DNA from: Mucilaginibacter sp. KACC 22773
GTDB taxonomy: Bacteria; Bacteroidota; Bacteroidia; Sphingobacteriales; Sphingobacteriaceae
DNA length: 64,000 nucleotides
Direction: 5' to 3'
Assembly: GCF_028736215.1 (NCBI RefSeq)
Contig: NZ_CP117883.1
Location: 6,262,001 to 6,326,000 of the forward strand
Below the pieces are notes generated by a model that was given only the letters and a program-made list of their open reading frames with translations, did not search any database and was not told where the DNA came from. The translations under genes were made by a program, and so were the position numbers. This document shows positions 30,423 through 46,782 of the stretch, one piece after another (position 1 is the first letter of the stretch; each line of letters opens with the position of its first letter).

Positions 30423-32573
30423 CTACCTGATCACTTCCCAGTTTTTGACATAATACCTGCTGCCTTTGAAAGCACCGGTTTTTTTTACCCCACCCTTACC
30501 ATGCTGATAGCTCAAACTAAGGTTATTATATTTTCCTTTTTCAAAGTCGAAGGTTACCCCATCATCTTCGAATAAGGAGAAAGGTTTCGGTTCATCGCCA
30601 TACACATAGCAGGTAAGTTCGAAACGGGTTTCCGGGTTTATGTATTCTACCGGCTTAGCCAGAGGCAAAATAGTACCCTCTTTCACAAATATCGGCAGCT
30701 CGGTATAACTGGTTTTTATGATATATTCTTGTCCTCCCGGATATTTTTTACGGGTATTGAAATCGTACCAGTTGCCTGCAGGAAGGTAAACTTTGCGTTC
30801 ATCGCTATTTTCGGTAAGCGGAGCAGCCAAAATTCCCTGGCCTATCATATATTCATCATCGATATTGAAAACTTTCGGGTCAGTTGGATAATCAACAACC
30901 AGGGCCCTGAAGGGCGGAATGCCCTTTGAATGGTAATCGGCAAATGCGCTATACAAATAAGGAACCAGGCTCATCCTGAAATTAAGAAGTTTACGCACAT
31001 CGGCCTCTACAGCTTTCGCGTTCTCCATAAACTCGTTTTTATTGTTTTTATCTCTGTTGATTTGCAGCCAGGGCGGATTTTGCAGATACCAGGAATTGTA
31101 TAGTGTTTGAGCCGATAGTACCGCTGTTTGACTGCGGCGCATCAGGTCGGCAACAGATTTGGATTCCCTGACCTCGGGCGACCAGATCAATCCTGAAAAT
31201 CCGGAATTACTGATCATCTGGATATATTCATGGTGATCATACGTATCGCTGTAAAGCGACGCAGGATAAGAGGAAGCAAATGCATTAGAGGCCCGCACAT
31301 CCAGGAAAGTTCGGATGTTAAGTTCTTTATAAATATTATAAACTGTTTTTTGGTAAACAACACCAAAAACCTGGTGCATTTGCTCGCCGTTAATTCCTGA
31401 AGGAAAACGACTATGTTCCGGAAAACTCCAGGTAGCATTCCCCGTGGTGAGGTTGGAGTTATCGCATTCATCCATTTTAAAACCGGAGATACCTTTGAGC
31501 ACAAAGGTATCTTTATGATAGTCGGCAAATAATTTACCGGCCGAAGGGTCAACAAAATCCGGTACAAGGCCGTTCCAAACCAGGTAATCTCCCGATTTAA
31601 TTTTAAGGGGTACATAAAGCGGCGATTTAGGATTTACGAACGCATGTTCCCACAAGTTGATGTGAAACCCTTTAGTCTTCATAGTATCTATGAACTTGTC
31701 ATGATCAGGAAAAAAATCTTTATTCCACACGTATGAGCAGGAATAGGCGGTTGTTTGCCATTTCGGTTCCAGGCCAAGTACATCACACGGAATTTGGTTA
31801 TCCCTAAAATAAGAAGCCATCTTGCCTACCTGTTGCTGGTTAAAGTCGGCCTTTACGCGGTATTTAACGCCAAGGCCCCACATAGCCGGCAAGGCCCCGC
31901 CGCCCGAAAATAAATTATAACGCTGTAAAACATTAATTAAGTCTGGGCCTTCAAATATATAAACCTCAACGCCCTGCACACCCGGAACATCTACCGCCAC
32001 ATAGCCCGACGCTGGACGATCATTTTTATACAACTCTTCAACAGAGTTACCGCTTTTACCATCATTTACATGAACCGCACCCGTATTTTTGGCGGTGCTG
32101 CCGCAGTAAAATGTAGTGTAATGCGAAGTATTCACCAGGATGCCATAACCTTTGTTCGATACATAAAATGGCATAGGGGCGTGGCTATATCCCAGGTCAT
32201 GTGAAGGGTTATCATTTACTATAGGTTTTTTCCGAAGGCCTTTTTGATTGAAAGACCCCATTTGCAGGCCGAATCCATAAAGCTGTTCTTCATTGTCTAA
32301 AGGTATCTCTATAACCGCCCCGCGATCAGAAACATTGATCTTAATGTCGTTAACATTGAAGGGCAGTTTGGCTTCAGGCAATCTGCTCATCTCTGCTACC
32401 ACGGGTTTTTCACTACAAAAGCTGTAAGGCGAAAACTTTTCCGGCAGGCCCGATGTGAGTTTTTTTACACCAGGTGCCACCGTTGCAACCTGTGGAGGTT
32501 GTTGTGCGATAGCAAAAAAGGAAATGTTGTGAAGAAGTACAAACAAAAGCGCGAATCGGGTGGTAAGTTTCAT
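30423..32573 (-). CDS. secreted glycoside hydrolase family 31
   Basis: I chose ATG 32573 because a clean signal peptide follows (KLTTRFALLFVLLHNISFFAIAQ); the longer frame starts 25 codons upstream with no such feature. The 716-residue enzyme has an N-terminal beta domain, a (beta/alpha)8 GH31 catalytic domain with the nucleophile in KMDECD (D368) and EPKWQ, and C-terminal beta domains. GH31 enzymes are alpha-glucosidases, xylosidases or related. The typical general acid region lies near the DHHEY segment. No SusCD genes lie beside it, so its glycan is unknown. It points toward a metallophosphoesterase gene on the opposite strand. Confidence 0.9.
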   Translation of the reverse strand: MKLTTRFALLFVLLHNISFFAIAQQPPQVATVAPGVKKLTSGLPEKFSPYSFCSEKPVVAEMSRLPEAKLPFNVNDIKINVSDRGAVIEIPLDNEEQLYGFGLQMGSFNQKGLRKKPIVNDNPSHDLGYSHAPMPFYVSNKGYGILVNTSHYTTFYCGSTAKNTGAVHVNDGKSGNSVEELYKNDRPASGYVAVDVPGVQGVEVYIFEGPDLINVLQRYNLFSGGGALPAMWGLGVKYRVKADFNQQQVGKMASYFRDNQIPCDVLGLEPKWQTTAYSCSYVWNKDFFPDHDKFIDTMKTKGFHINLWEHAFVNPKSPLYVPLKIKSGDYLVWNGLVPDFVDPSAGKLFADYHKDTFVLKGISGFKMDECDNSNLTTGNATWSFPEHSRFPSGINGEQMHQVFGVVYQKTVYNIYKELNIRTFLDVRASNAFASSYPASLYSDTYDHHEYIQMISNSGFSGLIWSPEVRESKSVADLMRRSQTAVLSAQTLYNSWYLQNPPWLQINRDKNNKNEFMENAKAVEADVRKLLNFRMSLVPYLYSAFADYHSKGIPPFRALVVDYPTDPKVFNIDDEYMIGQGILAAPLTENSDERKVYLPAGNWYDFNTRKKYPGGQEYIIKTSYTELPIFVKEGTILPLAKPVEYINPETRFELTCYVYGDEPKPFSLFEDDGVTFDFEKGKYNNLSLSYQHGKGGVKKTGAFKGSRYYVKNWEVIR

Positions 32574-32693
32574 AAACAAATATACAATCAAGCTTTCGTA
32601 TCTCTCAATAATACAATGATGCATTAAAGTTCGGCAAATGCTGTACATTGAAAATATTCTACCGGAAATATTATCGAAAATTGTTTTAAGGGC

Positions 32694-32745
32694 TTGTATT
32701 TCTCAAATATAGTTGTGTACATTTGTAGTGCACTATCTAACTATA
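32694..32745 (+). promoter_or_regulatory. promoter and candidate GntR operator of the ABC operon
   Basis: TTG (32694-32696), a 21-base spacer and TACATTTG (32718-32725) match the Bacteroidota -33/-7 promoter consensus. The inverted repeat TATAGTT (32708-32714) / AACTATA (32739-32745), with GTGTAC and GTGCAC inside, brackets the -7 element and ends 10 bases before the first gene. A GntR regulator of the same operon is the likely ligand. Confidence 0.6.
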
Positions 32746-32754
32746 GCACCTATT

Positions 32755-33609
32755 ATGATAGAGATTAAAGAACTGCATTTCGGGTACCAAAAAAACAAGC
32801 CGCTTTTTAGCGGACTAAACCTTTCCTTGAGCAAAGGCCATATTTACGGCCTGCTTGGCAAAAACGGGGCAGGCAAATCAACCCTGCTCAAAAACATGGT
32901 AGGCCTTACCTACCCGGCAAAGGGCGCCTGTTACTATAACAACAAAAATGTTTTCGGCAGGCCGGTTTCTGTTTTGGAAGATGTTTACTTTTTGGCCGAA
33001 GAACTTTTTGTGCCCGATATTACACCCGCACAGTATGTTAAAAGCACCGCTGTGTTTTATCCCAAATTCAGCAAAGCCGATTTTTACCGGTACCTGGCCG
33101 CTTTGGATGTTGATATGGATGCCGTAATGGATAAGCAAAGCTACGGCCAGCAAAAAAAGGCCATGATCGCTTTCGGGCTTGCCACCAATACAGGTTTGAT
33201 GATCATGGATGAGCCTACCAACGGATTAGATATTCCGTCCAAAGTGCAGTTCCGCAAGCTGATAGCGTCGGTATTAACCGAAGACAGGTGCATTGTAATA
33301 TCTACCCACCAGGTACGCGACCTTGACAGCCTGATTGATACTCTGCTCATTTTACATAAAGGCGAAATAGTGGTTAATCAATCAATGGATGAAGTAGCCG
33401 AAAAAATAACCTTTGGCAGCTATGCCGATACCGAAGGCTTGCCGGTGCTGTATGAAGAAAAAGGCCAGCGCGGCAAAAACGTTATTATTCAAAACAGCAC
33501 CGGCGAGTATAGTAAAGTTGATCTTGAACTGCTGTTTAACGCCATTACAACCGGCAACCATCTTGTTTTACAAACACTAAAAGCTACAGCAGATGAACGA
33601 GATATTTAA
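32755..33609 (+). CDS. ABC transporter ATP-binding protein
   Basis: I chose ATG 32755; the longer frame starts with a non-standard codon inside the promoter. The 284-residue protein has Walker A GKNGAGKST (35-43), an unusual signature SYGQQKKA (129-136) instead of LSGGQ, and Walker B with MDEPTNGLD (151-159), then the H-loop STHQ. It couples ATP hydrolysis to the membrane partner encoded next, whose start overlaps by 17 bases. YtrB-type transporters of this architecture often handle antibiotics or envelope stress. Confidence 0.9.
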   Translation: MIEIKELHFGYQKNKPLFSGLNLSLSKGHIYGLLGKNGAGKSTLLKNMVGLTYPAKGACYYNNKNVFGRPVSVLEDVYFLAEELFVPDITPAQYVKSTAVFYPKFSKADFYRYLAALDVDMDAVMDKQSYGQQKKAMIAFGLATNTGLMIMDEPTNGLDIPSKVQFRKLIASVLTEDRCIVISTHQVRDLDSLIDTLLILHKGEIVVNQSMDEVAEKITFGSYADTEGLPVLYEEKGQRGKNVIIQNSTGEYSKVDLELLFNAITTGNHLVLQTLKATADERDI

Positions 33610-34381
33610 CCTGAAACGCTTTGGCCGGCTGTTTTATAAACATACAACCGAGCATTATAAAAGCTACCTGATGTCAATAACGGTGCTTACCTGCGTGCTG
33701 TTGCTGGGTGGCAGCTTCCTGGTATTTTTGATGGATGTGCGCATGGAGCTACCGCTGCAGCTTTTGCTATTGGGCTGGGTTATACTGTTCACCGGCACCA
33801 TATTTACCAGCACCATATTTACTGACCTAGGCGACGATAAAAAAGCGCTGGGCGCATTAACCCTGCCAAGTACCCATTTTGAAAAATACCTGGTGGCCTG
33901 GCTATACTCGTTCGTAGTATTTTTGGTGGTATCAATAGGCTGTTTTTACCTGGTAATGCTATTTTTATTACATGCTAAACATTTTCCAGGGCCGCCGCTT
34001 GAAATATTCAGCCTTTTTTACCGCATACTTGGTTTTGGTGGTAACGTGTTGTTCATCATCCTTATTTTGTATTCGCTGTTTCATTCTATCGCCTTTTTGG
34101 GGGCTATCTGCTTCAAAAAACTTCATTTTGTTAAAACCGCGCTGATTTTTTTTATCGTGATAGCCATACTCATCACCCTTAACAACGTAGCTATGCATTA
34201 TATGATACATCGCGATATTATCCAGGTAGTGCCATTTACATCGGTAGGTTTTATGGAAAAAGGGAAGTACTTTGCCGTAAACCCCGAAGATTTTGTTTGG
34301 ACGGGCCAATTGGTATATATCATTGTGGCATTTATTTTATGGACGGCTGCCTACTTTCGTCTTAAGGAAAAACAGGCGTAA
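33593..34381 (+). CDS. ABC transporter membrane subunit
   Basis: The 262-residue protein has six hydrophobic segments (about 26-46, 53-72, 100-126, 148-170, 180-198 and 236-253) and no soluble domain, as expected for the permease of a YtrBC-like transporter. Its start overlaps the ATPase gene by 17 bases. The GntR gene follows after 6 bases. Substrate unknown. Confidence 0.8.
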   Translation: MNEIFNLKRFGRLFYKHTTEHYKSYLMSITVLTCVLLLGGSFLVFLMDVRMELPLQLLLLGWVILFTGTIFTSTIFTDLGDDKKALGALTLPSTHFEKYLVAWLYSFVVFLVVSIGCFYLVMLFLLHAKHFPGPPLEIFSLFYRILGFGGNVLFIILILYSLFHSIAFLGAICFKKLHFVKTALIFFIVIAILITLNNVAMHYMIHRDIIQVVPFTSVGFMEKGKYFAVNPEDFVWTGQLVYIIVAFILWTAAYFRLKEKQA

Positions 34382-34387
34382 TGCATT

Positions 34388-34780
34388 ATGGAATTTAAAG
34401 ATAAGGATGCCATATACCTGCAGATAGCAGCTTATGTGAGCGAAAATATATTATTAGGCAAATGGCTGCCTGAAGAAAAGATCCCTTCCACGCGCGATAT
34501 GGCAGTTGAGCTCGAAGTAAACCCAAACACAGTTATCCGGGCGTACGAGTTTTTGCAATCGCAGGAGGTAGTGATCAATAAACGCGGGCTGGGCTTGTTC
34601 GTGGCACCGGATGGGCCGCAAAAGGTGAAGGCCTATCGCAAACAGCGTTTTATTCAGCAACAATTGCCCGATTTTTTCAGGAATATATACCTGTTAGACA
34701 TCGACATCAAAGACCTGGAGAACATGTACAAGGAATACACGGCCGGCTTAACCCAGCCTAAAGCAGACGAAAACAAATGA
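34388..34780 (+). CDS. GntR-family regulator (YtrA type)
   Basis: The 130-residue protein has a winged-helix domain with PSTRDMAVELEVNPNTVIRA (residues 33-52) and the wing VVINKRGLGLFVA, followed by a short helical C-terminus with no large effector domain, as in YtrA regulators. It probably represses its own operon by binding the inverted repeat at 32708-32745, and it loses its grip when the inducer is present. The next gene starts within its stop (ATGA). Confidence 0.88.
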   Translation: MEFKDKDAIYLQIAAYVSENILLGKWLPEEKIPSTRDMAVELEVNPNTVIRAYEFLQSQEVVINKRGLGLFVAPDGPQKVKAYRKQRFIQQQLPDFFRNIYLLDIDIKDLENMYKEYTAGLTQPKADENK

Positions 34781-35529
34781 AAACGAGTACAAAAATATTT
34801 ATAGCCGCTTTAGTATTCCTGGTGCTATGCATCGGGGGATACGACCTGTTGCTGAAAAAAGAATTTTTAACCGGCCGGTACAAAAACTATTATTCGCACT
34901 TTACCCCGCTGCCATACAAGGATTTTGATGCCCTGGAAATAAATGCCGCGCATAAAGCCAGTGTCGAGGTAGTACAAGGTTCCTTTGGTGTAAAAGCCGA
35001 TCCCAACATACTTGATTACGTACAATTTACCCAAAAGGGCAGGCTGTTGCAAATGAACATCAAATACAACACCAACCGGTTTTATAATGATGAAAATTAC
35101 CGCATCATCATATCGTGCCCCAGCCTTTCAAGCTTAACCGCTAATGCCTTCATTGTTATCAATAAACAGCGCGTTATTGATACTACTACAAACGACAACT
35201 GGAATTATGGTAAAATAATGATTGATGGCTTTAAACAGGATAGCTTAATCATAAGCCAGGACTATGGCAGCCAGGTTGTACTGGCCAATAATAACATCGG
35301 CTTGTTAAACGCTACCGTTGGGCTAAGCCCTTTCAGCGGTTCGCACATTACTATTTTAAAAAACAACCGCTTTAATGTAGCCAAACTACAGCTACTCAAC
35401 AAAAGCACCCTAAACCTTAACGAAGCTAAAATAAACCAGTTGGATTATCGCCCCGGCGATAGTACCCGCCTCATTATAAACGGGGCTGCCAAAAACAGCC
35501 TGCTACCCTATATCCACCTTAAACAATAG
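34777..35529 (+). CDS. hypothetical membrane-anchored beta-rich protein
   Basis: The 250-residue protein has an N-terminal hydrophobic anchor (STKIFIAALVFLVLCIGGYDLL), then a periplasmic region rich in beta strands (ALEINAAHKASVEVVQGSFG, later KNNRFNVAKLQLLNKSTLN) similar to DUF2807-type beta-helix proteins. Translation is coupled to the GntR gene by an ATGA overlap, and the second ATPase starts 7 bases later, so it belongs to the operon and may act as an envelope-facing partner. Function unknown. Confidence 0.65.
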   Translation: MKTSTKIFIAALVFLVLCIGGYDLLLKKEFLTGRYKNYYSHFTPLPYKDFDALEINAAHKASVEVVQGSFGVKADPNILDYVQFTQKGRLLQMNIKYNTNRFYNDENYRIIISCPSLSSLTANAFIVINKQRVIDTTTNDNWNYGKIMIDGFKQDSLIISQDYGSQVVLANNNIGLLNATVGLSPFSGSHITILKNNRFNVAKLQLLNKSTLNLNEAKINQLDYRPGDSTRLIINGAAKNSLLPYIHLKQ

Positions 35530-35535
35530 TAACTT

Positions 35536-36423
35536 ATGAAATTACAAATCAATTCCCTTTCAAAAACTTACGCCAACGGGGTACATGCATTAAAGGATGT
35601 ATCCCTCACTTTGAATAACGGTATGTTTGGTTTATTGGGCCCAAACGGCGCCGGTAAATCATCGCTGATGCGCACCATTGCAACCTTGCAGGAAGCCGAT
35701 AAAGGCAGCGTTTTTTTAGATGACCTGGATGTACTTAAAAACAAAACCCAGGTAAGGCAGCTGCTTGGTTACCTGCCACAGGAGTTTGGCGTATACCCTA
35801 AAATATCTGCCGAGCGCATGCTTGACCACATTGCCCAGCTTAAAGGCATAGGTAATGCCGCCGAGCGCAAAAAACTGGTGGGCAGCCTGCTCGAAAATGT
35901 GAACCTATCTAAAGACCGCAAAAAACACCTGGGCACCTTCTCGGGCGGGATGAAACAGCGCTTTGGTATTGCCCAGGCCCTAATAGGCAACCCCAAACTC
36001 ATTATTGTTGATGAACCTACCGCCGGGCTCGACCCTGCCGAGCGCAACCGCTTTTACAACCTGCTGAGCCAGCTGGGCGAGAATACTATTGTAATTTTAA
36101 GCACCCATATTGTAGAGGACGTGAGTACCCTTTGCGCCAACTTTGCTATTATTTGCCAGGGCGAAGTATTATACGCCGGCCAGCCCGATGCGGCCGTAAC
36201 CGAACTGGAAGGCAAAATTTACAGCAAAGCGATCGACAAGGCCGATCTTGATTTTTACAAAGATGATTTTTCGGTCATCTCTACCCAATTGAAAACGGGG
36301 CAGCTGCACATTCGCATTATACAGGATACTGAACCGGGCAACGGCTTTATCGCCGCAATCCCAAATCTGGAGGATGTGTACTTTAGCAATATTGCCACCC
36401 GCGTAGATGTAAATACCATTTAA
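35536..36423 (+). CDS. ABC transporter ATP-binding protein
   Basis: The 295-residue protein has Walker A GPNGAGKSS (35-43), signature FSGGMKQR (135-142), Walker B IIVDEPTAGLD (156-166) and H-loop STHIVEDV. It is a classical type-2 exporter ATPase and pairs with the 1210-residue permease encoded 21 bases downstream. It is a second ATPase of the operon, distinct from the first, so the operon carries two transporters. Confidence 0.9.
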   Translation: MKLQINSLSKTYANGVHALKDVSLTLNNGMFGLLGPNGAGKSSLMRTIATLQEADKGSVFLDDLDVLKNKTQVRQLLGYLPQEFGVYPKISAERMLDHIAQLKGIGNAAERKKLVGSLLENVNLSKDRKKHLGTFSGGMKQRFGIAQALIGNPKLIIVDEPTAGLDPAERNRFYNLLSQLGENTIVILSTHIVEDVSTLCANFAIICQGEVLYAGQPDAAVTELEGKIYSKAIDKADLDFYKDDFSVISTQLKTGQLHIRIIQDTEPGNGFIAAIPNLEDVYFSNIATRVDVNTI

Positions 36424-36444
36424 CCCGCTTAAAAACAAAATATT

Positions 36445-39400
36445 ATGTTTCGGAAAATATTCATTTTCGAGGTGCAAAACCGCCTCAGAAGGCCCGCGGT
36501 TTATCTTTATTTTGCCGCCATTCTTGCATTTACCATCACGACATTTGCTACCGGATCGTTACCCATGGGCGATAAGGAGCACATCAACGCGCCTTTTGTT
36601 TTGGCATTATGGTGCGCGGGTATTACCATGTTTATGATGCTGGTAAGCTCATCAATCATGGGCGAGCCGCTTTACCGGGATATTGAAAACAACACTAAAG
36701 ATTATTATCTCACCTACCCCATTACCAAAGCAGGTTATTTTTGGGGCAGATACCTGGGCAGCTTTGTGTTTATGCTTTTTATAGCCAGCGCCATAATTAT
36801 CGGGGCTTACATTGGTACAAAACTTGGCCCGGCCATGGGCTGGAAAGACCCTAAAGAATACGGCCCTAATAAGCTGATCTATTACCTGCATCCTTTTTTG
36901 GTGATGGCCCTGCCCAACCTGTTTTTTACCTCGTCGTTATTTTTTGGCCTGGTGGCGCTTACGCGGAATGTAAAGGTGATTTACACCGGTGGCATCCTGC
37001 TGTTTTTGGGTTATTTTATTTCTGTTTTCTTTCTGCAAAATACCAGTAATGCCACAGTAATTATCAATGCCGATCCCTTTGGTATTAGCGCCGTGCGCTT
37101 TATGTCGGCCATTACCACATCGGCTGATAAAAACACAATGCTGTTCCCGGTTACCGGCGCTTTTTTGGCCAACAGGTTGATATGGACAGGCGTTGGCCTT
37201 GCTATTTTGATATTTACCTACATACAATTCAGCTTCGAAAGGTTTTTTAGCGGCAAGCGCGATAAGGCGGCAATTGATGATGTGGTTTCAAAGACAAAAC
37301 GGGCATTAGTATTAAAGGCCGATATCAGTTTTACCGGCTCCTACAACCGTAAAACCTTATTTAACCTTGCGCGGGTAGAACTCACCAACATCATCCGCGA
37401 TAATTATTTCTGGATAATTTTACTGGCCGGAATGGGCTTCCTGGGTTTTGTATTCTGGCTGGGCATGAATGATTATGGGGTTGCCTATTTCCCGCGCACC
37501 GTAATTTTAATGGCCATATTTAACGATGTCTTCCCCTTTTTCATCTTCTTCATCATCATATTTTACACCGGCGAAACCCTGCACCGCGACAAAATTACGC
37601 GTTATGCATTCATTAACGATTCCTTACCGCCGCCAAACTGGGTGCTTAATGGTTCAAAACTCCTGGCTTTGCTGGTACTGGGTTTCGGCTTATCGTTGGT
37701 ACCGCTGGTAACGGGCTTAGTTGTACAAACCATAAAAGGCTTCCATCAATATAACCTGTCGTTCTTTTTAATGTATGTGTTTACGGTAATTATGCCGCGT
37801 TTCCTGGAGATGGTGATTTTTGCTTATGTGGTACACGTTGTTATCAATAATAAGTTTGTGGCGCATGGTGTTGGGGTAGCTATTTGGGTGCTGGTTTTCT
37901 TTTTAAATACAACCGGGATATTCAATTACAACCTGCTCATTTACTCCTATACCCCGTGGTATGGCATATCAGATATGGATGGCATAGGCCACATGCAGGC
38001 GCCTGTTTACTGGTTTAACCTGTACTGGCTGTTATGTGGCGGGCTGCTTATTATTATAGCCGCTTTGTTTTATTTCCGTGGCGTTACCAGCTCATTTAAA
38101 GAGCGGCTGCAACTGGTGGGCCAACGGTTTGATACCAAAACAAAACTTTTTACCGTGGCTGTTGGCATAGCTTTTTTGGCTGTAGGCGCTTACAATTACT
38201 ACAACATTAGCTACCTGAACAACTTTTTAACCCAGGGCGAAAACGAAGACAGGACTATTATTTACGAAAAATCTTTAAAAAAATACGCCGACCTGCCACT
38301 ACCAAAGGTTACAGGGATAAAGCTATTTGCAGATATTTATCCTGATAAGCAGCAGGAAATTGTAAAAGCCTTTGTAACTGTTTTTAACCCTACTGATAAA
38401 CCAATTGAAAGACTATTGTTAGATGGTGATGACGTTACCGGTTATAGTATAAAAATTGGCGGCAAGCCGGTGCCCTTTACCTATCCGCTGCTATACAAAC
38501 GGGGTATGTTCAATTGGTTCAGGCCAAAACAGGATACGGCCGACTTTAGGTTATACCAGTTTGAAAAGCCTTTGGCCCCGGGCGATTCGGTGGTGTTCGA
38601 GGTTAATTCATGCATCGCACATAAAGGCTTCGAAAATGGTTTGTATGCCAAAAACCTGCTGCATAACGGTACATTTTTTAACGGCGGCCTGCCCGGCATG
38701 GGCTATGATGATGACGACGAGGAAAACAGCAACTACGTGCGCAAAAAAAATGGGCTGCCCGAGAAGCAAGAGGAAGAAATAGCGCAAAACGACCCGGTAG
38801 GCATCAGTACCCTTAAATCGGGCAAAGCTTCCGGTTTGCTAAACCTTGATATTACGGTAAGCACATCGGCCAATCAAACCGCCATAGCCCCCGGCAACCT
38901 GCAAAAACACTGGCAGCAAAATGGCCGCAACTATTACCACTACACCGGTAATAATTTTTATGCCCCGCTGGCTATCCTGTCGGCAAGGTATGCAAACCGG
39001 CATGATAGCGTACAGCTTAACCATAAGGTTAATGTTGATATTTACTACCACCCGGCGCATAATACCAATATCAACCGCATAATGGCGGCTTATAAAGATG
39101 GATTGCATTATTTTTCAAAGGCATTTGGCCCCTACCCTTTCAATGATATCCGCCTGGCCGAAACAAGTGATTTTGGCCCGCATGATGCCTCATTAAGTAC
39201 GCTTGATACTTATGCCGAGCGATATGCCTGGAACGCCAATTTTGAAAACCCCAACCAGTTTGATTTTGTATATTTTAACACCAGCCGCCAGCTGGCACAA
39301 CAATGGTGGCGCTACCAGGTTGCGCCAAACGCAACTGTAGGCTCATTGGTAATACCCGAAGGCCTTGCCAGTTATAGCGCCTTGCTTATGGCCGAGCAAA

Positions 39401-40077
39401 AGTATGGTAAAGACAATATGAAATGGATATTGTATGACCAGGTGAACTTTTACACCTTTATCAGGCACCGGATGGAAGATAAGGAACATCCCCTGATAAA
39501 GGCCGACAAGTGGTTTTTATGGGGCGGCAAGGCCGGCCTGGTATTGTACACCCTAAAAGATTTGATGGGCGAAGACAGCCTGAACAATGCACTGCGCGAA
39601 TTTAAAAACGCCTATGCTTTTAAAAGCAAGCCACCTTACGCCGGCAGTACCGATTTGTACCGCTACCTGCAAAAGCATGTGCCCGATTCGTTACAATATT
39701 ACTTAACCGATACCTGGCAAAAAATCACGCTTTACGATAATAAACTGATCGATTTAAAATCGGCGCCAACCGGCAACAAAAACGAATATAAGGTTACCCT
39801 AACCGTAAACGCAGGTAAAGTTTGGATTGATAGCAAAGGCAATGATATCGAGGCCAAAAACATGAACGATTATATAGATATCGGCGTGTTTGGGGCCAAT
39901 ACTACCAACAAAGAAGGCAGGTTGATAGTGAACCCGCTCTACCTAAAACGGCACAAGCTTACCGCCGGTAAGCACACCATAACCATGATTGTAAAAGGCA
40001 AACCCGTAAACGCAGGCATCGACCCCTACAACAAACTGATAGACCGTTTAATGGGCGATAATTCGAAGGATTTTTAA
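36445..40077 (+). CDS. ABC permease fused to an M1 aminopeptidase-like domain
   Basis: The 1210-residue protein has roughly twelve transmembrane segments in residues 1-590, arranged as an ABC-2-like permease. An extracytoplasmic M1 aminopeptidase-like region follows (about 600-1200). In the position of the zinc motif HExxH the sequence reads RQLAQ (948-952, in NTSRQLAQQWW); only a later Glu (E972 in IPEGLASYSALLM) matches. The zinc site is therefore lost, and catalysis by the M1 mechanism is not expected. The domain may be a binding or sensing module. It is the last gene of the GntR/ABC operon; its ATPase partner precedes it. Confidence 0.85.
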   Translation: MFRKIFIFEVQNRLRRPAVYLYFAAILAFTITTFATGSLPMGDKEHINAPFVLALWCAGITMFMMLVSSSIMGEPLYRDIENNTKDYYLTYPITKAGYFWGRYLGSFVFMLFIASAIIIGAYIGTKLGPAMGWKDPKEYGPNKLIYYLHPFLVMALPNLFFTSSLFFGLVALTRNVKVIYTGGILLFLGYFISVFFLQNTSNATVIINADPFGISAVRFMSAITTSADKNTMLFPVTGAFLANRLIWTGVGLAILIFTYIQFSFERFFSGKRDKAAIDDVVSKTKRALVLKADISFTGSYNRKTLFNLARVELTNIIRDNYFWIILLAGMGFLGFVFWLGMNDYGVAYFPRTVILMAIFNDVFPFFIFFIIIFYTGETLHRDKITRYAFINDSLPPPNWVLNGSKLLALLVLGFGLSLVPLVTGLVVQTIKGFHQYNLSFFLMYVFTVIMPRFLEMVIFAYVVHVVINNKFVAHGVGVAIWVLVFFLNTTGIFNYNLLIYSYTPWYGISDMDGIGHMQAPVYWFNLYWLLCGGLLIIIAALFYFRGVTSSFKERLQLVGQRFDTKTKLFTVAVGIAFLAVGAYNYYNISYLNNFLTQGENEDRTIIYEKSLKKYADLPLPKVTGIKLFADIYPDKQQEIVKAFVTVFNPTDKPIERLLLDGDDVTGYSIKIGGKPVPFTYPLLYKRGMFNWFRPKQDTADFRLYQFEKPLAPGDSVVFEVNSCIAHKGFENGLYAKNLLHNGTFFNGGLPGMGYDDDDEENSNYVRKKNGLPEKQEEEIAQNDPVGISTLKSGKASGLLNLDITVSTSANQTAIAPGNLQKHWQQNGRNYYHYTGNNFYAPLAILSARYANRHDSVQLNHKVNVDIYYHPAHNTNINRIMAAYKDGLHYFSKAFGPYPFNDIRLAETSDFGPHDASLSTLDTYAERYAWNANFENPNQFDFVYFNTSRQLAQQWWRYQVAPNATVGSLVIPEGLASYSALLMAEQKYGKDNMKWILYDQVNFYTFIRHRMEDKEHPLIKADKWFLWGGKAGLVLYTLKDLMGEDSLNNALREFKNAYAFKSKPPYAGSTDLYRYLQKHVPDSLQYYLTDTWQKITLYDNKLIDLKSAPTGNKNEYKVTLTVNAGKVWIDSKGNDIEAKNMNDYIDIGVFGANTTNKEGRLIVNPLYLKRHKLTAGKHTITMIVKGKPVNAGIDPYNKLIDRLMGDNSKDF

Positions 40078-40099
40078 TAACCGGCCAACGATTTACCCA

Positions 40100-40327
40100 G
40101 TGCACCAAAAACACCTCCTAAACCTTACCATCAAAAAGCTCATCGGCGAAGCAACCGCCGATGAGCTTTTAGCACTTGATAGCCTGGTAAAAAGCCATCC
40201 CGAAGATGCATTTTTTGTAAATACCATAACCGACTGGTTTAACACTGATAACGAGACAGACGATAGGCAGAGTGAGCTGTTATTTAAACGCGTCAAGGAT
40301 AAAATAACCGATGAACCGTTAAAATAA
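40100..40327 (+). CDS. small protein resembling the N-terminus of FecR-type anti-sigma factors
   Basis: From GTG 40100 the 75-residue frame encodes HLLNLTIKKLIGEATADELLAL, a helical segment seen at the start of FecR-like proteins (about 20-40 residues that bind sigma). No membrane span or FecR domain follows, so it is either a short stand-alone domain or a truncated gene. It lies 22 bases after the 1210-residue permease gene and may belong to the operon. No good ribosome binding site. Confidence 0.4.
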   Translation: MHQKHLLNLTIKKLIGEATADELLALDSLVKSHPEDAFFVNTITDWFNTDNETDDRQSELLFKRVKDKITDEPLK

Positions 40328-40527
40328 AATGAATGCCTGACTAAAAAACAAAGAACCACAGTCGTTATTTTCAACGCAGAGAACCCAAATTGCACACATA
40401 GTGTAAAGTGCTTTACATTATGTGTGCAAAAACAGTAAAAACTTGCACATCAGACACTTTAGGGGTATTTTTAAATAAAAACAGGTTAACCGATTTTTAA
40501 AAGTTGTCTAAAAAAATAAAAACAGAC

Positions 40528-40606
40528 CGCCATTGCGAAGTATTAAACAATCCCCGATATGCTAAGTTCCAAATAGTTCGGGATTGCTTCGTAACTCGCA
40601 ATGGCG
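40528..40606. repeat. 11-bp inverted-repeat element in the 40328-40661 gap
   Basis: CGCCATTGCGA (40528-40538) and TCGCAATGGCG (40596-40606) are exact inverted repeats. The interior holds AACAATCCC and GGGATTGCTT, which pair too, so the whole can form a long hairpin. Related words (TTATGCCTCGCAATGACAT) occur near 63412-63430. Nothing else recognisable is in the gap. Confidence 0.6.
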
Positions 40607-40661
40607 TATGCGTGCTTCATTAAAAGTATAAGACAACGTTTAAATCATAAAAAAAACAGCC

Positions 40662-40853
40662 ATGAATTTATTTAATCAAAATGATCCTGATGAGCTGAAC
40701 GACGATGCTGACAGCGCCTTGCCTGAAAGCGAATTTACAGGCAACTCGTTTGATAACGATTTGCCCGACGGCCTAAAAAAGGATGAAGAAAGCGAGGGAG
40801 AGCAGCTTGGCTTTACTTCGTTGTTTGGTGGCAAAAACACCCCGATAGGTTAG
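40662..40853 (+). CDS. 63-residue acidic protein
   Basis: The frame starts at ATG 40662 and is rich in Asp, Glu and Asn (NDPDELNDDADSALPESE), with a short conserved-looking end FTSLFGGKN. No signal peptide, membrane span or domain. The gap before it contains only the palindromic element and A-rich DNA. Composition suggests an intrinsically disordered protein. Doubtful but plausible. Confidence 0.4.
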   Translation: MNLFNQNDPDELNDDADSALPESEFTGNSFDNDLPDGLKKDEESEGEQLGFTSLFGGKNTPIG

Positions 40854-41003
40854 GTTGAAATTTTCCCTGCGGGCTGCAAATTCAATACCCGTCATATAAT
40901 ATGATAGGCAATGTACTTTTGTGCCCGCTTAGTAAGTTTTCAGAAAGATTAAAGTTTCAACAAGGAACCGACAATAATATTGAGCTTTTGTTAGCCCCAG
41001 GTG

Positions 41004-42422
41004 ATGCAAATACAGTCCGTTGTTAAAATTGCGCTGATAGGCTTACTGACAGCCGGTATGTCCTTTTCCTGCGGGCAACATCAAAGTAATAAAGCGTTTA
41101 CGCTGTCTGCAGAAAACGGCAAAAACGACACCAGCCAAATTGCGCGGTTAGTTAAAAAAAGTTTATTGGTGCAGGCAACTAATGCTGATAGTGCTTTAAT
41201 ATATGCCGGCCAGGCCCTTGCTATTGCAAAAAACATCAATTATAAAACGGGCGAAGCAAATAGCTTAAACCGGATGGGCGTTGTGTTATGGAAAAATGGC
41301 AGGTATGACCGTGCACTTGAACTGTTATTGGGCGCTTTAAAAATAAGGGAAGAAAAAAAAGATCAGCCGGGCGAGCTGGCCTGCCTCAATAACATCGGCA
41401 TTATCTATTCCGATCAAAATGATGATGAGAAAGCCCTTACCTATCACTTTAAGGCAAAAGCCATTGCCGAATCAACACATAACAACAAATTTTTAAGCAC
41501 CATATTATCTAATATAGGCAACAGCTATATTAAATTGAATAAAGTGAACCTTGCCCTGGGGTACGAGATGCAGGCCTATGCGCTGCAGCAAAACCTGGGC
41601 GATCAGGGTTCTTTATCAAATACCTTATCAATATTGGGCGATATTCACTATAAAATGAACCACCGGTCGCTTGCAATTGAATACTACCGGCTAAGCTTAA
41701 ACAATGCCGAGAAAAACAATGATCAGGGTAGTCTGGCAGATACTTACAACAGCCTGGCGGCCCTATATAATGATATAAACCAGCCAGATTCAAGCGCGTT
41801 TTATGCAAAAAAAGGGTTAGAAGCGGCGCAAAAAGCCCATTATCCTATCGCAATATTTACAGCAAGCAGTTTACTCACAAAAATATACCAGGCATCAAAC
41901 GAGCACCTGGAATTGCTTTATTTAAAAACGGCAATGGCCGCGAAGGATAGCATGTTTAGCATCGAGAAAATTAAGCAGGTACAAACACTAAGCTTTAACG
42001 AGGCATTGCGGCAGCAGGAGATTTCTGAACAAAAAAGGCATGAAGCCGAAGAAAGGATCATCAATCTTCAATTAATAGGCATTGCCATATTTATCCCGGT
42101 TTTCTTTTTGGTGCTCCTTTTCCTTAGTAAGGGCCGTACACACCGTAGGGTCATTGAATTTATGAGCGTATTATCTCTGCTGCTTGTTTTTGAGTTTATC
42201 ACCCTTTTTATCCATCCCTTTGTTCAACGCATCAGTAGCCATTTGCCTGTGCTTGAGTTAGCGATACTTGTAGCGCTTGCTGCGGTGCTGGTGCCCTTAC
42301 ATCACCGGCTTACCAACTGGCTTCGTTTAAAATTAGTACACGCCGAAGCGCACGTGCACCTGGCACAAGGAAAGCCCAACGAGCCGGCAAAAAGACCGGT
42401 ATCCAGAAACCACCGCTCCTAG
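41004..42422 (+). CDS. TPR lipoprotein with C-terminal membrane segments
   Basis: I chose ATG 41004 over the GTG before it. The 472-residue protein has a lipoprotein-like signal (LIGLLTAGMSFSC, C23), TPR repeats (about 60-330) with units such as GEANSLNRMGVVLWKNGRYD and GELACLNNIGIIYSDQNDDE, a coiled coil (EALRQQEISEQKRHEAEER), then two or three transmembrane segments (about 350-425) and a short histidine-rich tail. It resembles the sensor part of TPR-histidine kinases but lacks a kinase. It is likely a membrane adaptor. No partner kinase nearby. Confidence 0.75.
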   Translation: MQIQSVVKIALIGLLTAGMSFSCGQHQSNKAFTLSAENGKNDTSQIARLVKKSLLVQATNADSALIYAGQALAIAKNINYKTGEANSLNRMGVVLWKNGRYDRALELLLGALKIREEKKDQPGELACLNNIGIIYSDQNDDEKALTYHFKAKAIAESTHNNKFLSTILSNIGNSYIKLNKVNLALGYEMQAYALQQNLGDQGSLSNTLSILGDIHYKMNHRSLAIEYYRLSLNNAEKNNDQGSLADTYNSLAALYNDINQPDSSAFYAKKGLEAAQKAHYPIAIFTASSLLTKIYQASNEHLELLYLKTAMAAKDSMFSIEKIKQVQTLSFNEALRQQEISEQKRHEAEERIINLQLIGIAIFIPVFFLVLLFLSKGRTHRRVIEFMSVLSLLLVFEFITLFIHPFVQRISSHLPVLELAILVALAAVLVPLHHRLTNWLRLKLVHAEAHVHLAQGKPNEPAKRPVSRNHRS

Positions 42423-42439
42423 TAACATGTACCCTGGCA

Positions 42440-42691
42440 TTAACTTCCTGCAAAGAAACCGATAGACCTGGCTTCCTGCTCCTTGCCGGCAAGGCCCTGT
42501 ATAAAAAGCTGCCCATCCTCAATTTTAAACTGAAGGCTGCGTTCATCAAGCTTAAAACCATCTGCTTTTAAAATATCTTTTATCTTCTCAACAAGTTCCT
42601 TGCGATCAAACACTGGGCTCAACTTCAGTTGATCGTTTACAGGCTCCAATACAATGCCATCGGCCTTATACGAGAATATTTTTGATTCCAT
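42440..42691 (-). CDS. 83-residue hypothetical protein
   Basis: I chose ATG 42691; the longer frame adds 10 unlikely residues. The protein alternates strands and helices (KIFSYKADGIVLEPVNDQLK, LVEKIKDILKADGFKLDERS) and ends with AGKEQEARSIGFFAGS. No known domain or signal peptide. It converges on the TPR lipoprotein gene, 17 bases apart. Function unknown. Confidence 0.5.
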   Translation of the reverse strand: MESKIFSYKADGIVLEPVNDQLKLSPVFDRKELVEKIKDILKADGFKLDERSLQFKIEDGQLFIQGLAGKEQEARSIGFFAGS

Positions 42692-42953
42692 GGAATAAAT
42701 ATCGCAATTCCCGCGCCTCAAATGCTTTAATTAATGTCACGTTTTTATATAAATAATTAACCATCGTGCCCGTTTCTGGCGGTATATAGCCCATCCACGG
42801 GATAATAAAACTCCGGCTTCATCCGCTTGCCTGTACACCGGTTAAAAAGCCTCTATTTACAATTAGTTTTGAACAACAAAGATCAAAAAGACAGGTTTAA
42901 TTGTTGATACCTTATGCAGGCTCTGTAGGTACCCGCAATTATTGGGCCGCCTA

Positions 42954-44312
42954 TCATCTAACACCCGGCAAATCAGCAACCGCCTTCAATAATCCGGCTT
43001 CGCTTGAGGCGTTCACATTCACCAGGTAAAATGGCTTGCTACCCTGGGCTGCTGTCCATCGCCATTCAAGCTGGCTAACGGTTTTAAGGCTGCCATTATC
43101 AAACCACCAGGCCGAGTAGATCTTATCCGCCCCTTTGGCAAGGATACCCGAATATACCTCGCGCCCGGCTATGGCTTGCTTGCGGATGCGGGTAAAATTG
43201 TAGCCACTGCCCTGCCAGCAAATCATGGGGTTATGTTCGGGGCCGTAAAAGGGTGTGGGCTTTAGGTACACCAGTTGGCCGGGCTTATCAAACTTGATAA
43301 CCCCGCTTTCCAGCAGTTGCTTTTTGTAGCCGCTCAGGGTTACCGCATCAGCCCCTTTATTGCTCAGTTCATCCATGCTTTTTAAATTGCATGCGATAAC
43401 AATGAGTACCCCGGCAAATAGTAAATGAATAAAGGGATATCTTACCTCATCGGGCACCAGCCGTACAAGTTGTTTCTGCCGCGGGTGCTTCTCTATTTTT
43501 GCCGATCTTTTCAGGTAAAAATTACTCAGCCACAACAAGGGGAGTATCACATACACCAACAGGCAAATAACCCCGGTTACATCATGCAAAACACTTGCTG
43601 CTGGTATTTTAAACAATACCAGCAGCATAATACGGCACAGGTTGGCCACAATATTCAGCAAAAAGGTTAACGCCAGCAGCAGCGCAATTTCAATAAAACC
43701 AAGCCGTTTAATTGTTTGCCGCTGGCAATGGGCTATTATAAACAGGCATATAATAAACGACATACTCAGCATGTGCAAACCCGCGCAGGCCTGGTCTACA
43801 GAAAACTCGGCGCCATTTAACTCAATAATGTTGCCCGATGCATGCGCGGCAATTCCCCCCATGCTTAAAATGCCCGCCACCACCTCGCTCAGCCAAATCC
43901 TGATGGGGAAGCTGATAGCATTGCTGATATATATAAACAGCGGCGAAACCAGCAAGAGCAGGAAAAACAAGACCAAGCTCACCTTTCCTTTAAAATTCTC
44001 AAAAAACAATAATACGGCAAATAACAGGGCTACAAACAGCGTGGTTTTAACCGGGAAAATAAGCGCGATAACACCAAATATCACCGAGGGCAAAAAGTAC
44101 CGCATAGAGTGTTCTCCATGCTTTACGCGGCATATATAAGGGGCAAGCGCTATCCCCATTAACAGGTCGGCATTCCACAAAAAATAAATGGAAAGCAATT
44201 TAATAGCGATAACGAGATACACCAGGCAGCAGCCGTTTATCAGCAAGCGGCTGCTACCCCAAGCACAACCCGTAAAGGGCGCCTTAAATATCCTGCTTAG
44301 CATATTTGGCAC
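42954..44312 (-). CDS. xrtN: exosortase N (XrtN)
   Basis: The 452-residue membrane protein has about ten hydrophobic segments and the catalytic triad of exosortases: C176 in QACAGLHML, R227 in ANLCRIML and H243 in VLHDVTG. Exosortases cleave and anchor proteins bearing a PEP-CTERM-type tripartite signal. The XrtN subfamily is specific to Bacteroidota and is paired with a VIT-domain protein whose gene precedes it here, overlapping by 29 bases. A C-terminal non-membrane region of about 150 residues (300-452) is present. No other proteins with this signal are visible in the window. Confidence 0.88.
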   Translation of the reverse strand: MPNMLSRIFKAPFTGCAWGSSRLLINGCCLVYLVIAIKLLSIYFLWNADLLMGIALAPYICRVKHGEHSMRYFLPSVIFGVIALIFPVKTTLFVALLFAVLLFFENFKGKVSLVLFFLLLLVSPLFIYISNAISFPIRIWLSEVVAGILSMGGIAAHASGNIIELNGAEFSVDQACAGLHMLSMSFIICLFIIAHCQRQTIKRLGFIEIALLLALTFLLNIVANLCRIMLLVLFKIPAASVLHDVTGVICLLVYVILPLLWLSNFYLKRSAKIEKHPRQKQLVRLVPDEVRYPFIHLLFAGVLIVIACNLKSMDELSNKGADAVTLSGYKKQLLESGVIKFDKPGQLVYLKPTPFYGPEHNPMICWQGSGYNFTRIRKQAIAGREVYSGILAKGADKIYSAWWFDNGSLKTVSQLEWRWTAAQGSKPFYLVNVNASSEAGLLKAVADLPGVR

Positions 44313-46782
44313 GGTATACTAAAAAGTTAATTACCGCAAGTGCTATCAGCACCAACAGCCACTCGCCCGGTTCGGGTACCGCGCCTGATGATTTCATGGA
44401 GGCATTTTTAAGGCTATCCTTATTTTCATCGATCCCGAAGCGCTCATAATCTGCCTGTGTTTCCAGCACGATGAGGCTGGATACCGGCGAGGCAATGTAG
44501 GCCTGTTCGGCCTCCCTGATGATATCCGGCTGCACGTAAGTTTTATCAAAATAATGCGGACCAACCTTTTTCATAATATCGTTATAGGCGAACAGACGCA
44601 ACAAATGATCGGGGGCATTACTTTTCAGGGTATCGGTAGTTTGACTGATGATAAGGCCCGATTGATCCAGCACCACATGCCCGGCATCTTCCTGCGATTG
44701 AATAAACCGGTGCTGGTTAAGTTTATCTAACATGGCTGGTAACTCACCACTATCATAAACAAACACCCGCATCTCTTTTAAAGCTTTCAGGTAAGGGGTT
44801 ATTTTGGTGCCGATATTGAACATCCGTACAGGTTTTGCGGTTGCCAGGTAAGCGGTAAGCCGCCGCTGAAATTCCGAATCGTCCAGATCACCCAGGTTAG
44901 GTGCTATATCCGGGCATTTGGTAATTATCAAGGCCTTTTCGGCATCTTTAACCTCGTTAACGGGGAACAGGCTAAAATTCAGTTTCTGCGCCCTGGCAAA
45001 TACTTCGGCCTTGTTTTCTTCCGTCAATTCTTTTAGTTCCCCATCATAGTAATAAACCTTTTTTGTTTTGATGGCCTGCCATACGCTATCAAAGTCGGTT
45101 ATATTCCAGGATCTGTTCAAATCAAGGTACACCGCTGCCGGGTCGAAAGCGGCGTATTGTGGCTTATAATTTTCCAGCTTGTACCCTGCCCCCGCGAAGG
45201 TAAATTGCGCATTGGCCAGCGGTGGTGCTGCAAAAACAATCTCGTCATCGGCCCGGTATTTTCTGTCGGCAGTAAAAACACCTTCTGTCAATTCCTCAAA
45301 TCCGGGCAGGCTGAGCAGCGGTGGCTTTTTTGAAAAGGCAAGCTGTATGGTCTCATCGGCACCGGTAGTTGGCGGCCCGTCAAAATAAATACTTTCGTAA
45401 ACCAGTTGAGTACCTTGCTGCCTGAGCGGACTGGTAACGCCTATCCTGAACTTCCGGGCCTCGGTTGGGGTAACCGGAAAAACCCGTACACTCACGGTGT
45501 TGCCTTCCTGCCAGTGAATTACCGATGGATCGCGCCGCTCCACCCCAACCACCGTTTTATAAGTCGAATCGGCCCTGGCCTTGGTAGTTAACCGCGACTT
45601 TGCCTCCTTGCCATCTATCCATAATGATAACGAACTCACAACCGAACCCGCGGGCAGGTGAAATGTATAAATGGCCTCTTTGCTGGGCCACCAGGGGCTG
45701 GCCTCACTGCTTTTTATAAACAAAGTTTTTTCGGTATAAGCCAGCCGGTATTCGGGCAATATTTTAACGTTGGTTACTACCGATGCGGTTTTCAGTTTAC
45801 CGCCGCTCCATAACCTGTCCTGCGCCTTGTGCCGGGCATCATACATGGCCTCCAGTATTTTGATGCGTTCGTGTTCCTCTAAATTGGTTTGGCCGCAAAA
45901 CAGACTGGCCAATACCACAAGAGGATCGTGCTTTAAAGGCTCGTCGAAAGATGCATTATGAAAATTGGTATTCCATAACCAGTTTTCCTGCAGGCTTACG
46001 GTTTTGTAAACCAGGTTGGCTTTAATAATGCGCTCAGCAATGCTGTTTTTAGGAATATTTTGACTGATAACCACCCACGACGGCAATTTACCTTCGGCCA
46101 AAGTGTTGTGATTAACGGCCAGGTTAACCTGTTTGTTGATGCTGTGCCATTGCCATATAAACAGGGCAATAACTAAAACCGGAACACCCCCCCCCGCAGC
46201 AAGCGCCATTTTTAACGACTGGCTGCCCGCCACATTCCGTTTAATGACGATAAAAGTAACCACAGCCAATGCTACCGGCGCAAAAACATGCAACGAGATG
46301 CCGATGGCTATAGAGGCTATAAGGCCAATAATATACATGGAGGTAAGGTAAAGGCTGTAATAAACAAACAGTAAAAAGGCCGCTCCCAGCAAAAACATTA
46401 CCAGGTGCTTAACATCGTTAGTCAGCTGTTCCATAAACAAGGCCATTATTAAAGCTATGCACGATAGGCAAATAACCACACAAAGCCAGGGCACCGAAAT
46501 ATCAAACACATTCATGCTGCGGTTTAAAGCAAACGCGCTAATAAACCAAAGCATAAAAAGCAGCACCCAGTAGGCCAGCCGCTTTGGCCGTTTAAACACT
46601 ACAACAAAAAAATAGGTTACAGAAAATACATAGTTGATAAAAAAGGCGCCAAAGGCAGTACCATCATTCAGTTCAAACAAGCTGGTTTCGGTAATACCAA
46701 ACAAGGCTGCCGAGGCCAGTATCAGCATCAGCCCGGTTTTAATCACCCTATCTTCGGATAAAATTGCTTTAAGGATTTTCAT
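44284..46782 (-). CDS. XrtN-system VIT-domain protein with PEP-CTERM-like tail
   Basis: The 832-residue protein starts with about seven transmembrane segments (13-215), followed by a VIT-like domain (about 350-470, e.g. IYTFHLPAGSVVSSLSLWID and TYKTVVGVERRDPSVIHW) and a VWA-like remainder. Its last 30 residues form a sorting signal: PEP at 803-805 (VPEPGEW), a hydrophobic helix and a basic tail (YRAKYAKQ). It is the probable substrate or partner of exosortase N, whose gene overlaps its 3' end by 29 bases. The partner is known of the XrtN family; the role in envelope assembly is inferred. Confidence 0.85.
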   Translation of the reverse strand: MKILKAILSEDRVIKTGLMLILASAALFGITETSLFELNDGTAFGAFFINYVFSVTYFFVVVFKRPKRLAYWVLLFMLWFISAFALNRSMNVFDISVPWLCVVICLSCIALIMALFMEQLTNDVKHLVMFLLGAAFLLFVYYSLYLTSMYIIGLIASIAIGISLHVFAPVALAVVTFIVIKRNVAGSQSLKMALAAGGGVPVLVIALFIWQWHSINKQVNLAVNHNTLAEGKLPSWVVISQNIPKNSIAERIIKANLVYKTVSLQENWLWNTNFHNASFDEPLKHDPLVVLASLFCGQTNLEEHERIKILEAMYDARHKAQDRLWSGGKLKTASVVTNVKILPEYRLAYTEKTLFIKSSEASPWWPSKEAIYTFHLPAGSVVSSLSLWIDGKEAKSRLTTKARADSTYKTVVGVERRDPSVIHWQEGNTVSVRVFPVTPTEARKFRIGVTSPLRQQGTQLVYESIYFDGPPTTGADETIQLAFSKKPPLLSLPGFEELTEGVFTADRKYRADDEIVFAAPPLANAQFTFAGAGYKLENYKPQYAAFDPAAVYLDLNRSWNITDFDSVWQAIKTKKVYYYDGELKELTEENKAEVFARAQKLNFSLFPVNEVKDAEKALIITKCPDIAPNLGDLDDSEFQRRLTAYLATAKPVRMFNIGTKITPYLKALKEMRVFVYDSGELPAMLDKLNQHRFIQSQEDAGHVVLDQSGLIISQTTDTLKSNAPDHLLRLFAYNDIMKKVGPHYFDKTYVQPDIIREAEQAYIASPVSSLIVLETQADYERFGIDENKDSLKNASMKSSGAVPEPGEWLLVLIALAVINFLVYRAKYAKQDI

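Follow-up and report, generated by a model that had tools for sequence, protein, structure and literature searches.

An ABC permease fused to an apparently non-catalytic M1-peptidase-like domain in a Ytr-like operon of Mucilaginibacter

The fusion protein and its operon

We analyzed a stretch of 64,000 nucleotides, hereafter the window, from Mucilaginibacter sp. KACC 22773 (contig NZ_CP117883.1, positions 6,262,001 to 6,326,000 of the forward strand), whose host is described as a soil bacterium and whose genome comprises 7.54 Mb. An open reading frame on the plus strand (36445-40077, ATG start) encodes a protein of 1210 amino acids in which the permease of an ATP-binding cassette (ABC) transporter (residues 1-587, 36445..38205) is fused to an M1-peptidase-like domain (residues 588-1210, 38206..40074). 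M1 peptidases need an HExxH motif plus one Glu for zinc. In the fusion protein, HExxH is replaced by RQLAQ at residues 948-952 (39286..39300, context NTSRQLAQQWWRYQVA), and E972 (39358..39360), at the position of the third zinc ligand, is retained downstream in the segment VIPEGLASY. A preliminary description of the window had reported the fusion, the replaced motif and the retained Glu, and had proposed that the domain is a non-catalytic, extracytoplasmic receptor tied to transport. Direct reading of the sequence bears out the two residue observations, and family-alignment profiles together with the predicted M1 fold bear out the fusion.

The fusion is the last of six genes on the plus strand, which are separated by gaps of -17, 6, -4, 6 and 21 bases. 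The first encodes an ATP-binding protein, ABC1 (32755..33609), with an ABC_tran match (E 2e-20), Walker A and B motifs and an SYGQQ signature; its best NCBIfam model is PmtA, under the cut-off. ATG 32755 is its probable start, since the TTG start chosen by the program (32713) would read through the promoter. Next come perm1 (33593..34381), a conserved neighbor without a Pfam or NCBIfam match that is the presumed permease partner of ABC1, and a short GntR regulator of the YtrA type (34388..34780), which matches PF00392 (E 5e-11) and, below the cut-off, the PmtR model (E 7e-12). The fourth gene (34777..35529) encodes a GIN/DUF2807-like protein that starts with MKTS and has a hydrophobic N terminus (PF10988, E 4e-5, 23.9 bits, slightly short of the cut-off of 24.2). 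A second ATP-binding protein, ABC2 (35536..36423; ABC_tran E 3e-29, Walker A and B), lies directly upstream of the fusion. Because the gaps range from -17 to 21 bases and a single palindrome lies upstream, we infer that the six genes share one transcript.

The domains could not be assigned from single-sequence profiles, because the window protein alone matched no Pfam or NCBIfam family. ABC2_membrane models matched relatives and not the window protein itself, and the M1-like domain alone gave no PF01433 match over the cut-off, which places it outside that family by profile; the two HExxH-bearing domains that were tried both match PF01433. In family alignment A1, 17 of the 21 members matched PF01433 (Peptidase_M1) and several matched ABC2_membrane models. 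A whole-genome profile search found 17 other places above the Peptidase_M1 cut-off in the host genome, the fusion locus itself giving no match, and no second copy of the fusion protein was found in that genome at E 0.001. The only PDB sequence match of the window protein alone was Taf2 (6hqa, E 0.083, not significant), and the profile of alignment A3, which includes HExxH-bearing rows, matched ERAP2 by sequence (E 2e-9).

The predicted structure of the domain (623 amino acids) agrees with the latter match. AlphaFold2 modeled it with high confidence (mean predicted local distance difference test score 91.7, predicted template modeling score 0.90), the best Foldseek match was ERAP2 (6ea4, E 3e-26, template modeling score 0.56 by query), and the best 50 Foldseek matches listed were M1 aminopeptidases. 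By VIA-align the best match was the puromycin-sensitive aminopeptidase 8sw0 (Z 24.6, root-mean-square deviation 5.2, 491 residues). The corresponding domain of the HExxH-bearing protein of Mucilaginibacter corticis (mean predicted local distance difference test score 89.2) gave Z 25.4 and a deviation of 6.1 over 497 residues. In the models, therefore, the window domain is as near to solved M1 enzymes as its HExxH-bearing relative is, and it probably belongs to the M1 catalytic-domain fold.

Family-averaged hydropathy shows 13 peaks, read as 13 predicted spans, and the even-numbered loops are richer in Lys and Arg. This positive-inside pattern supports an N terminus inside the cell and an M1-like domain outside the cytoplasm, as the preliminary description had it. 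The tie to transport is likewise upheld by the fusion to a permease and by the adjoining ATPase gene with its Walker motifs. The 13 peaks, the cognate ATPase gene upstream and the ABC2_membrane matches of relatives point to an ABC-2 type transporter.

Loss of the catalytic centre in one clade

The ABC/M1 family was present in 85 of the 395 sampled genomes of the phylum. Within the genus, 68 of 149 genomes had a match at E 1e-30 or better, and a full-length copy at 54% identity or higher was counted, by rows, in 53 genomes. The first alignment of homologues divided the family: copies at 54% identity or higher lacked HExxH, and HELAHQWWG was present in the group that followed at 46-50% identity. 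A readable motif was available for 279 loci, repeats included, of which 153 had HExxH and 126 did not; four further loci (L290, L295, L297 and L303) had no readable motif. RQLAQ is not a sequencing error, since a genome of the same species (G020), whose copy is 98% identical, also reads RQLAQ, and the clade-wide loss likewise speaks against a lone mutation.

To place the loss, we used a tree of 106 proteins built from approximately 590 permease residues, with the M1 domain excluded. The input consisted of proteins of at least 950 amino acids, deduplicated at 97% identity, which reduced the HExxH-less proteins from 71 to 68 and the near relatives from 27 to 26; 12 of 30 outgroups were used, and among the 137 unique HExxH-bearing proteins, 48 with no more than 28% identity were left out. 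All 68 HExxH-less proteins formed one clade (Shimodaira-Hasegawa-like approximate likelihood ratio test 100, branch length 0.41), which was nested within the HExxH-bearing family when the tree was rooted on the 12 outgroups. Three proteins were left out for length, namely the clade-like L126 and L088 (71% and 67% identical) and L090. The last of these (in genome G117) is a second, distant ABC/M1 copy disrupted by an in-frame stop, and its 190-residue piece reads RSVAA. The clade is mainly Mucilaginibacter and also contains records named Chitinophaga, Puia, Flavitalea and Agriterribacter (Chitinophagaceae) and one Spirosoma validum. No independent loss of HExxH outside the clade was found among proteins of at least 950 amino acids among the matches listed, one search having supplied at most 30 loci and another its own loci plus 40 more from longer lists. 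Thus, the M1 domain apparently became a pseudopeptidase once, in an ancestor of Mucilaginibacter and some Chitinophagaceae. The second His of HExxH is retained in only 2 of the 68 proteins, L299 (YQLGH) and L284 of Puia dinghuensis (VQLAH), and L299 is drawn as the first branch of the clade; the second His may have been the last part of HExxH to go. Placement in the tree is uncertain for individual long rows, for example L299, L125 and L261.

The loss extends beyond HExxH. Because the HExxH-bearing comparison set was picked by that motif, its presence there is no finding; E972 and a Tyr at position 1027 were both present in 137 of the 137 unique HExxH-bearing relatives. In alignments, position 1027 agrees with a Tyr of ERAP2 that we take to be the catalytic Tyr of M1 peptidases. 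None of the 66 readable clade members has this Tyr, 34 of them having Gly, as does the window protein (G1027, 39523..39525). E972 is kept in 58 of 67 readable members. Position 948 varies among Arg (28), Gln (16), Lys (6) and others, position 949 among Gln (31), Leu (14) and others, and position 952 is Gln in 54 of 68. Residues 913-917 (39181..39195), which align near the GAMEN of ERAP2 and read FAQSF in HExxH-bearing relatives, are lost in the clade save S916 (59/68). The GAMEN exopeptidase motif itself is absent from the window protein. FAQSF also stands at that place, and not GAMEN, in most HExxH-bearing fusions (L102-L106, L268 and relatives); therefore, their usual name 'aminopeptidase' is doubtful, and these proteins might act as endopeptidases or differ in specificity in another way. 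As judged from these residues, the window protein has neither the full set of HExxH plus third-ligand Glu (of which E972 alone remains), nor the Tyr, nor GAMEN, the marks of an active M1 peptidase. With both His and the Glu of HExxH gone, Tyr lost at 1027 and no new fixed His or Cys, the proposal of a non-catalytic domain is upheld.

Other residues are kept or newly fixed. Q953, W954 and W955 are invariant in the 68 clade members, and L658, D660 and Y839 (68/68 each), G973 (67/67) and P898 (65/68) are newly fixed. Such clade-specific residues are spread over the whole domain, beyond the region of the old active site. Among acidic residues, D660, D662, D758 and D802 are the only newly fixed ones (at least 80%), and all four lie in its N-terminal part; no newly fixed His or Cys was found in the clade's domain at the same threshold. 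An alternative zinc site, which would overturn the earlier interpretation, thus receives no support from sequence conservation. R956 (39310..39312) is typical of the clade (54/68), where relatives have Gly or Ala, and E972 is kept in 53 of the 54 members with R956 versus 5 of the 13 remaining members in which the residue could be read. An R956-E972 salt bridge replacing zinc fits this pattern, although few lineages lie behind the covariation and E972 covaries to a similar degree with other columns.

The domain is nevertheless under purifying selection rather than drifting, with slightly less constraint than the permease. In 16 close, non-independent pairs of the clade, the median ratios of nonsynonymous to synonymous substitution rates (dN/dS) were 0.051 for the permease and 0.073 for the M1 domain (range 0.04-0.09). 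The medians for 12 HExxH-bearing pairs from the whole family were 0.049 and 0.058, and two outliers among these (0.65 and 0.75) seem to reflect saturation or misalignment.

The nearest known systems are the HExxH-bearing ABC-2/M1 fusions themselves, annotated 'M1 family aminopeptidase' and found close to the clade in M. corticis, Mucilaginibacter pineti, Hufsiella and Dyadobacter. They share its length, domain order and upstream ATPase, but they keep E972 and Tyr throughout and lack an adjoining GntR cassette in all 20 loci compared (see below). Relatives also occur on plasmid records of other phyla, some annotated 'M1 family aminopeptidase'. Among the matches listed, a distant relative (approximately 19% identity) lies on 14 records of Zymomonas mobilis plasmids, annotated as an ABC transporter permease or a hypothetical protein.

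Linkage to a GntR cassette and its operator

ABC2 lies beside the fusion in all 74 unique loci with enough upstream sequence. The genes further upstream differ: ABC1 and GntR were found in 47 of 51 HExxH-less loci versus 0 of 20 HExxH-bearing loci (unique loci in which at least 3.6 kb of sequence precedes ABC2). This count started from 89 unique loci, of which 15 with less than 3.6 kb upstream were dropped (L233, L250 and L287 among these show the cassette); the motif was unreadable in 3 of the remaining 74, one with the cassette and two without. Some relatives carry the cassette away from the fusion. It is present without ABC2 or the fusion at its site in genomes G035, G080, G123 and G248, the last of which has an HExxH-less fusion with only ABC2 adjoining and a regulator match (E < 1e-30) outside that operon. 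Genomes of Chitinophaga ginsengisoli and Agriterribacter carry ABC1-perm1 with the palindrome apart from the fusion. Since the cassette can stand apart in this way, the comparison suggests that the loss of catalysis goes with the recruitment of the fusion into the cassette. In five loci of the Chitinophagaceae type, the fourth gene encodes a divergent protein of similar size, which starts with MKTSNK in four. The GIN-like proteins of two loci (L270 and L323) have no Pfam match, and they are regarded as equivalent because of where they lie, their size and an initial MKTSNK, with 34% identity as a further ground in the case of L323.

Upstream of ABC1, the palindrome TAGTGTA-N12-TACACTA was found at 13 or 14 of 14 positions in 42 of 56 regions (repeats included), against at most 11 in shuffled sequences. 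The regions upstream of ABC2 in HExxH-bearing loci scored 8-11, as shuffles do. The putative GntR operator of the window, TAGTGCACTATCTAACTATAGCACCT (32726..32751), is a diverged version of the palindrome seen in the clade, TAGTGTAC-N10-GTACACTA; it aligns with the site of locus L237 at 24 of 26 bases. A pattern built from it had one match in the 7.54-Mb genome at up to three mismatches. It directly follows TACATTTG (32718..32725), which from the sequence reading fits TAnnTTTG, presumably the -7 promoter element of Bacteroidota, and TTTG immediately before the palindrome is readable in several loci. We assign the window operator tentatively because of its near identity to the L237 site and its place beside TACATTTG. 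In the palindrome, GT and AC lie far from the center, as the available part of one study describes for sites of YtrA-type regulators (PMC4494728). With a short GntR gene within an ABC operon and a long palindromic operator, the locus appears to be a Ytr-like operon, the palindrome being weak in the window itself.

An operator-like site (12/14) stands directly before ABC2 in L288, on a Chitinophagaceae contig that breaks off before the genes further upstream, and there the fusion is perhaps under the same regulator without an intervening cassette. An operator match in Spirosoma (L339) was rejected, as it is not beside ABC1. The sigma-70 scan (27 versus 19.6 expected) and the terminator scan (10 versus 10.8 expected) were not used, and positions 30000-44000 gave no Rfam match at the gathering threshold. 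The intergenic region with the operon promoter is shared by a divergent GH31 alpha-xylosidase/glucosidase-like gene (30423-32648, minus strand). Downstream of the operon, the minus strand (42954-46782) has two neighboring matches, one to Exosortase N (TIGR04476, 413 bits against a cut-off of 200) and one to an XrtN system VIT-domain protein (TIGR04477, 985 bits against a cut-off of 250), which is the predicted sorted partner of the former.

A non-cleaving ectodomain in a Ytr-like system

Several known systems resemble parts of this locus. In the accessible parts of the sources, the ytr operon of Bacillus subtilis has two ATPases, the YtrA repressor and the extracytoplasmic YtrF (PMC12772383; PMC8060467), is induced by inhibitors of the lipid II cycle and affects cell-wall synthesis (PMC12772383), and YtrA regulators are said mostly to control ABC operons (PMC4494728). 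Like ytrGABCDEF, the operon studied here encodes two ATPases together with a short GntR repressor, and its products also include membrane proteins and a component outside the cytoplasm. The systems differ in gene order, the GIN-like protein and phylum, and YtrF has a MacB-like domain (PMC8060467, as far as seen in the available text) instead of an M1 fold. By analogy, the operon may work like ytr, the likeness being one of gene content. A non-catalytic M1 member is also on record: yeast Tma108 is thought to bind nascent peptide chains through its substrate pocket, but, according to the parts of the review available, it keeps most active-site residues (PMC11266112), and it is ribosome-linked, eukaryotic and without a transporter. 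ABC1 scores best with the PmtA model of staphylococcal Pmt and GntR second best with PmtR, yet both fall far below the curated family cut-offs (113.9 versus 350 bits and 45.5 versus 200 bits, respectively). To our knowledge, the Pmt system has no M1 domain. TAF2 is a non-catalytic TFIID subunit of M1 fold without peptidase activity, but it is a eukaryotic transcription factor from an unrelated context.

Overall, we somewhat favor the view that the M1-like domain serves as a pseudopeptidase ectodomain, binding a ligand or gating transport within a double ABC system that resembles Ytr and is encoded by a GntR-controlled operon. The dead catalytic center, the selected fold and the conserved operon on which this view builds come from the sequence, the tree and the predicted fold. 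Envelope stress or a peptide-like ligand would relieve GntR repression, and two ABC transporters, ABC1 with perm1 and ABC2 with the fusion, would then be made. The pseudopeptidase domain would bind, but not cleave, a peptide, another envelope ligand or a partner protein, and this binding might be coupled to the transport cycle, by analogy with what is thought for the extracytoplasmic part of YtrF. The locus would thus form one regulon under GntR with two transporters and a non-cleaving ectodomain. A more specific form, in which a built-in periplasmic peptidase turned into a non-cleaving sensor of peptides or lipid-linked precursors upon joining the Ytr-like cassette and the Arg956-Glu972 pair replaced zinc, is put forward only tentatively.

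Several points weigh against the favored view. Few evolutionary events lie behind the linkage, so that the 47 of 51 loci represent correlated changes rather than independent cases. Four HExxH-less copies (L118, L259, L265 and L266) are not linked to the cassette, and the cassette regulator (E < 1e-30) occurs in only 3 of the 8 genomes with an HExxH-bearing fusion (G035, G080 and G123). The operator of the window (32726-32751) scores within the shuffled range, and a loose palindrome scan of the window found 1 site versus 1.20 expected, which is chance level. The tree was a quick search with several long-branch warnings. R956 and E972 could still hold a metal in an unforeseen way, and the HExxH-bearing relatives are uncharacterized as far as our literature search found. 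Two of the unlinked copies, L259 of Spirosoma validum and L265 of Chitinophaga ginsengisoli, form a sister pair nested among the Mucilaginibacter proteins of the tree, and this nesting suggests horizontal transfer of ABC2 and the fusion without the cassette.

The same data may be read differently. A structural or partner-binding role of the domain fits them as well as the putative 'receptor' of the preliminary description. A less likely possibility than the favored view is that the domain is only a structural or assembly scaffold. It would then stabilize the permease or offer a docking site to the GIN-like protein or perm1, without binding any small ligand or peptide. Its fold is under selection while all catalytic groups are lost, clade-specific fixed residues cover the entire domain and not just the old active site, and pseudoenzymes of metallopeptidase families are described, in the part of the review available, as acting via protein-protein contacts (PMC11266112). 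However, the GIN-like protein is also found in cassettes without the fusion and is therefore no obligate partner, and the helix of the old active site (Q953, W954 and W955) and mostly E972 are conserved.

We consider it improbable that the domain still catalyzes a reaction, whether at a rearranged metal site or without a metal. E972 (58/67) and the new Arg956 (54/68) tend to vanish together, and Asp660 is newly fixed in all 68 members, but the two His have been lost together with the catalytic Glu and the Tyr, positions 948, 949 and 1027 are free to vary, and no new conserved His or Cys has appeared; the covariation of R956 and E972 derives from few lineages and is explained equally by a salt bridge. 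There is also little to recommend a decaying passenger kept only through its fusion to a needed permease. Although the constraint on the M1 domain in the clade is slightly weaker than that on the permease (ratio 1.42), some branches are long (for example, L125 and L261) and two domains are shortened (L284, 526 amino acids, and L287, 561 amino acids), the domain dN/dS of 0.04-0.09 is near the HExxH-bearing median of 0.058 (12 pairs), a full-length copy persists in 53 genomes of the genus, and residues have been newly fixed.

Literature searches with few subscription papers found no publications on ABC permease/M1 fusions; the papers listed, one of them on a microviridin M1 protease, deal with other topics. 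The word 'transporter' does not appear in a review of metallopeptidase pseudoenzymes, in which term searches showed one M1 case, Tma108 (PMC11266112). In the searched literature, neither the pseudopeptidase clade nor its link with a Ytr-like cassette appears to have been described, the fusions themselves being known to annotation. Beyond the preliminary description, the analysis adds that the entire clade shares the loss, that this loss includes the Tyr at 1027 and the 913-917 motif, and that the gene belongs to this operon. The family thus offers a natural before-and-after pair, sometimes within one genus, of a complete and an erased peptidase center in the same transporter, in which the erasure accompanies a new operon and regulator. 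With such a pair, it can be tested whether the M1 domain of these widespread fusions binds or cuts, and the comparison would provide a handle on what the Ytr-like systems of Bacteroidota sense.

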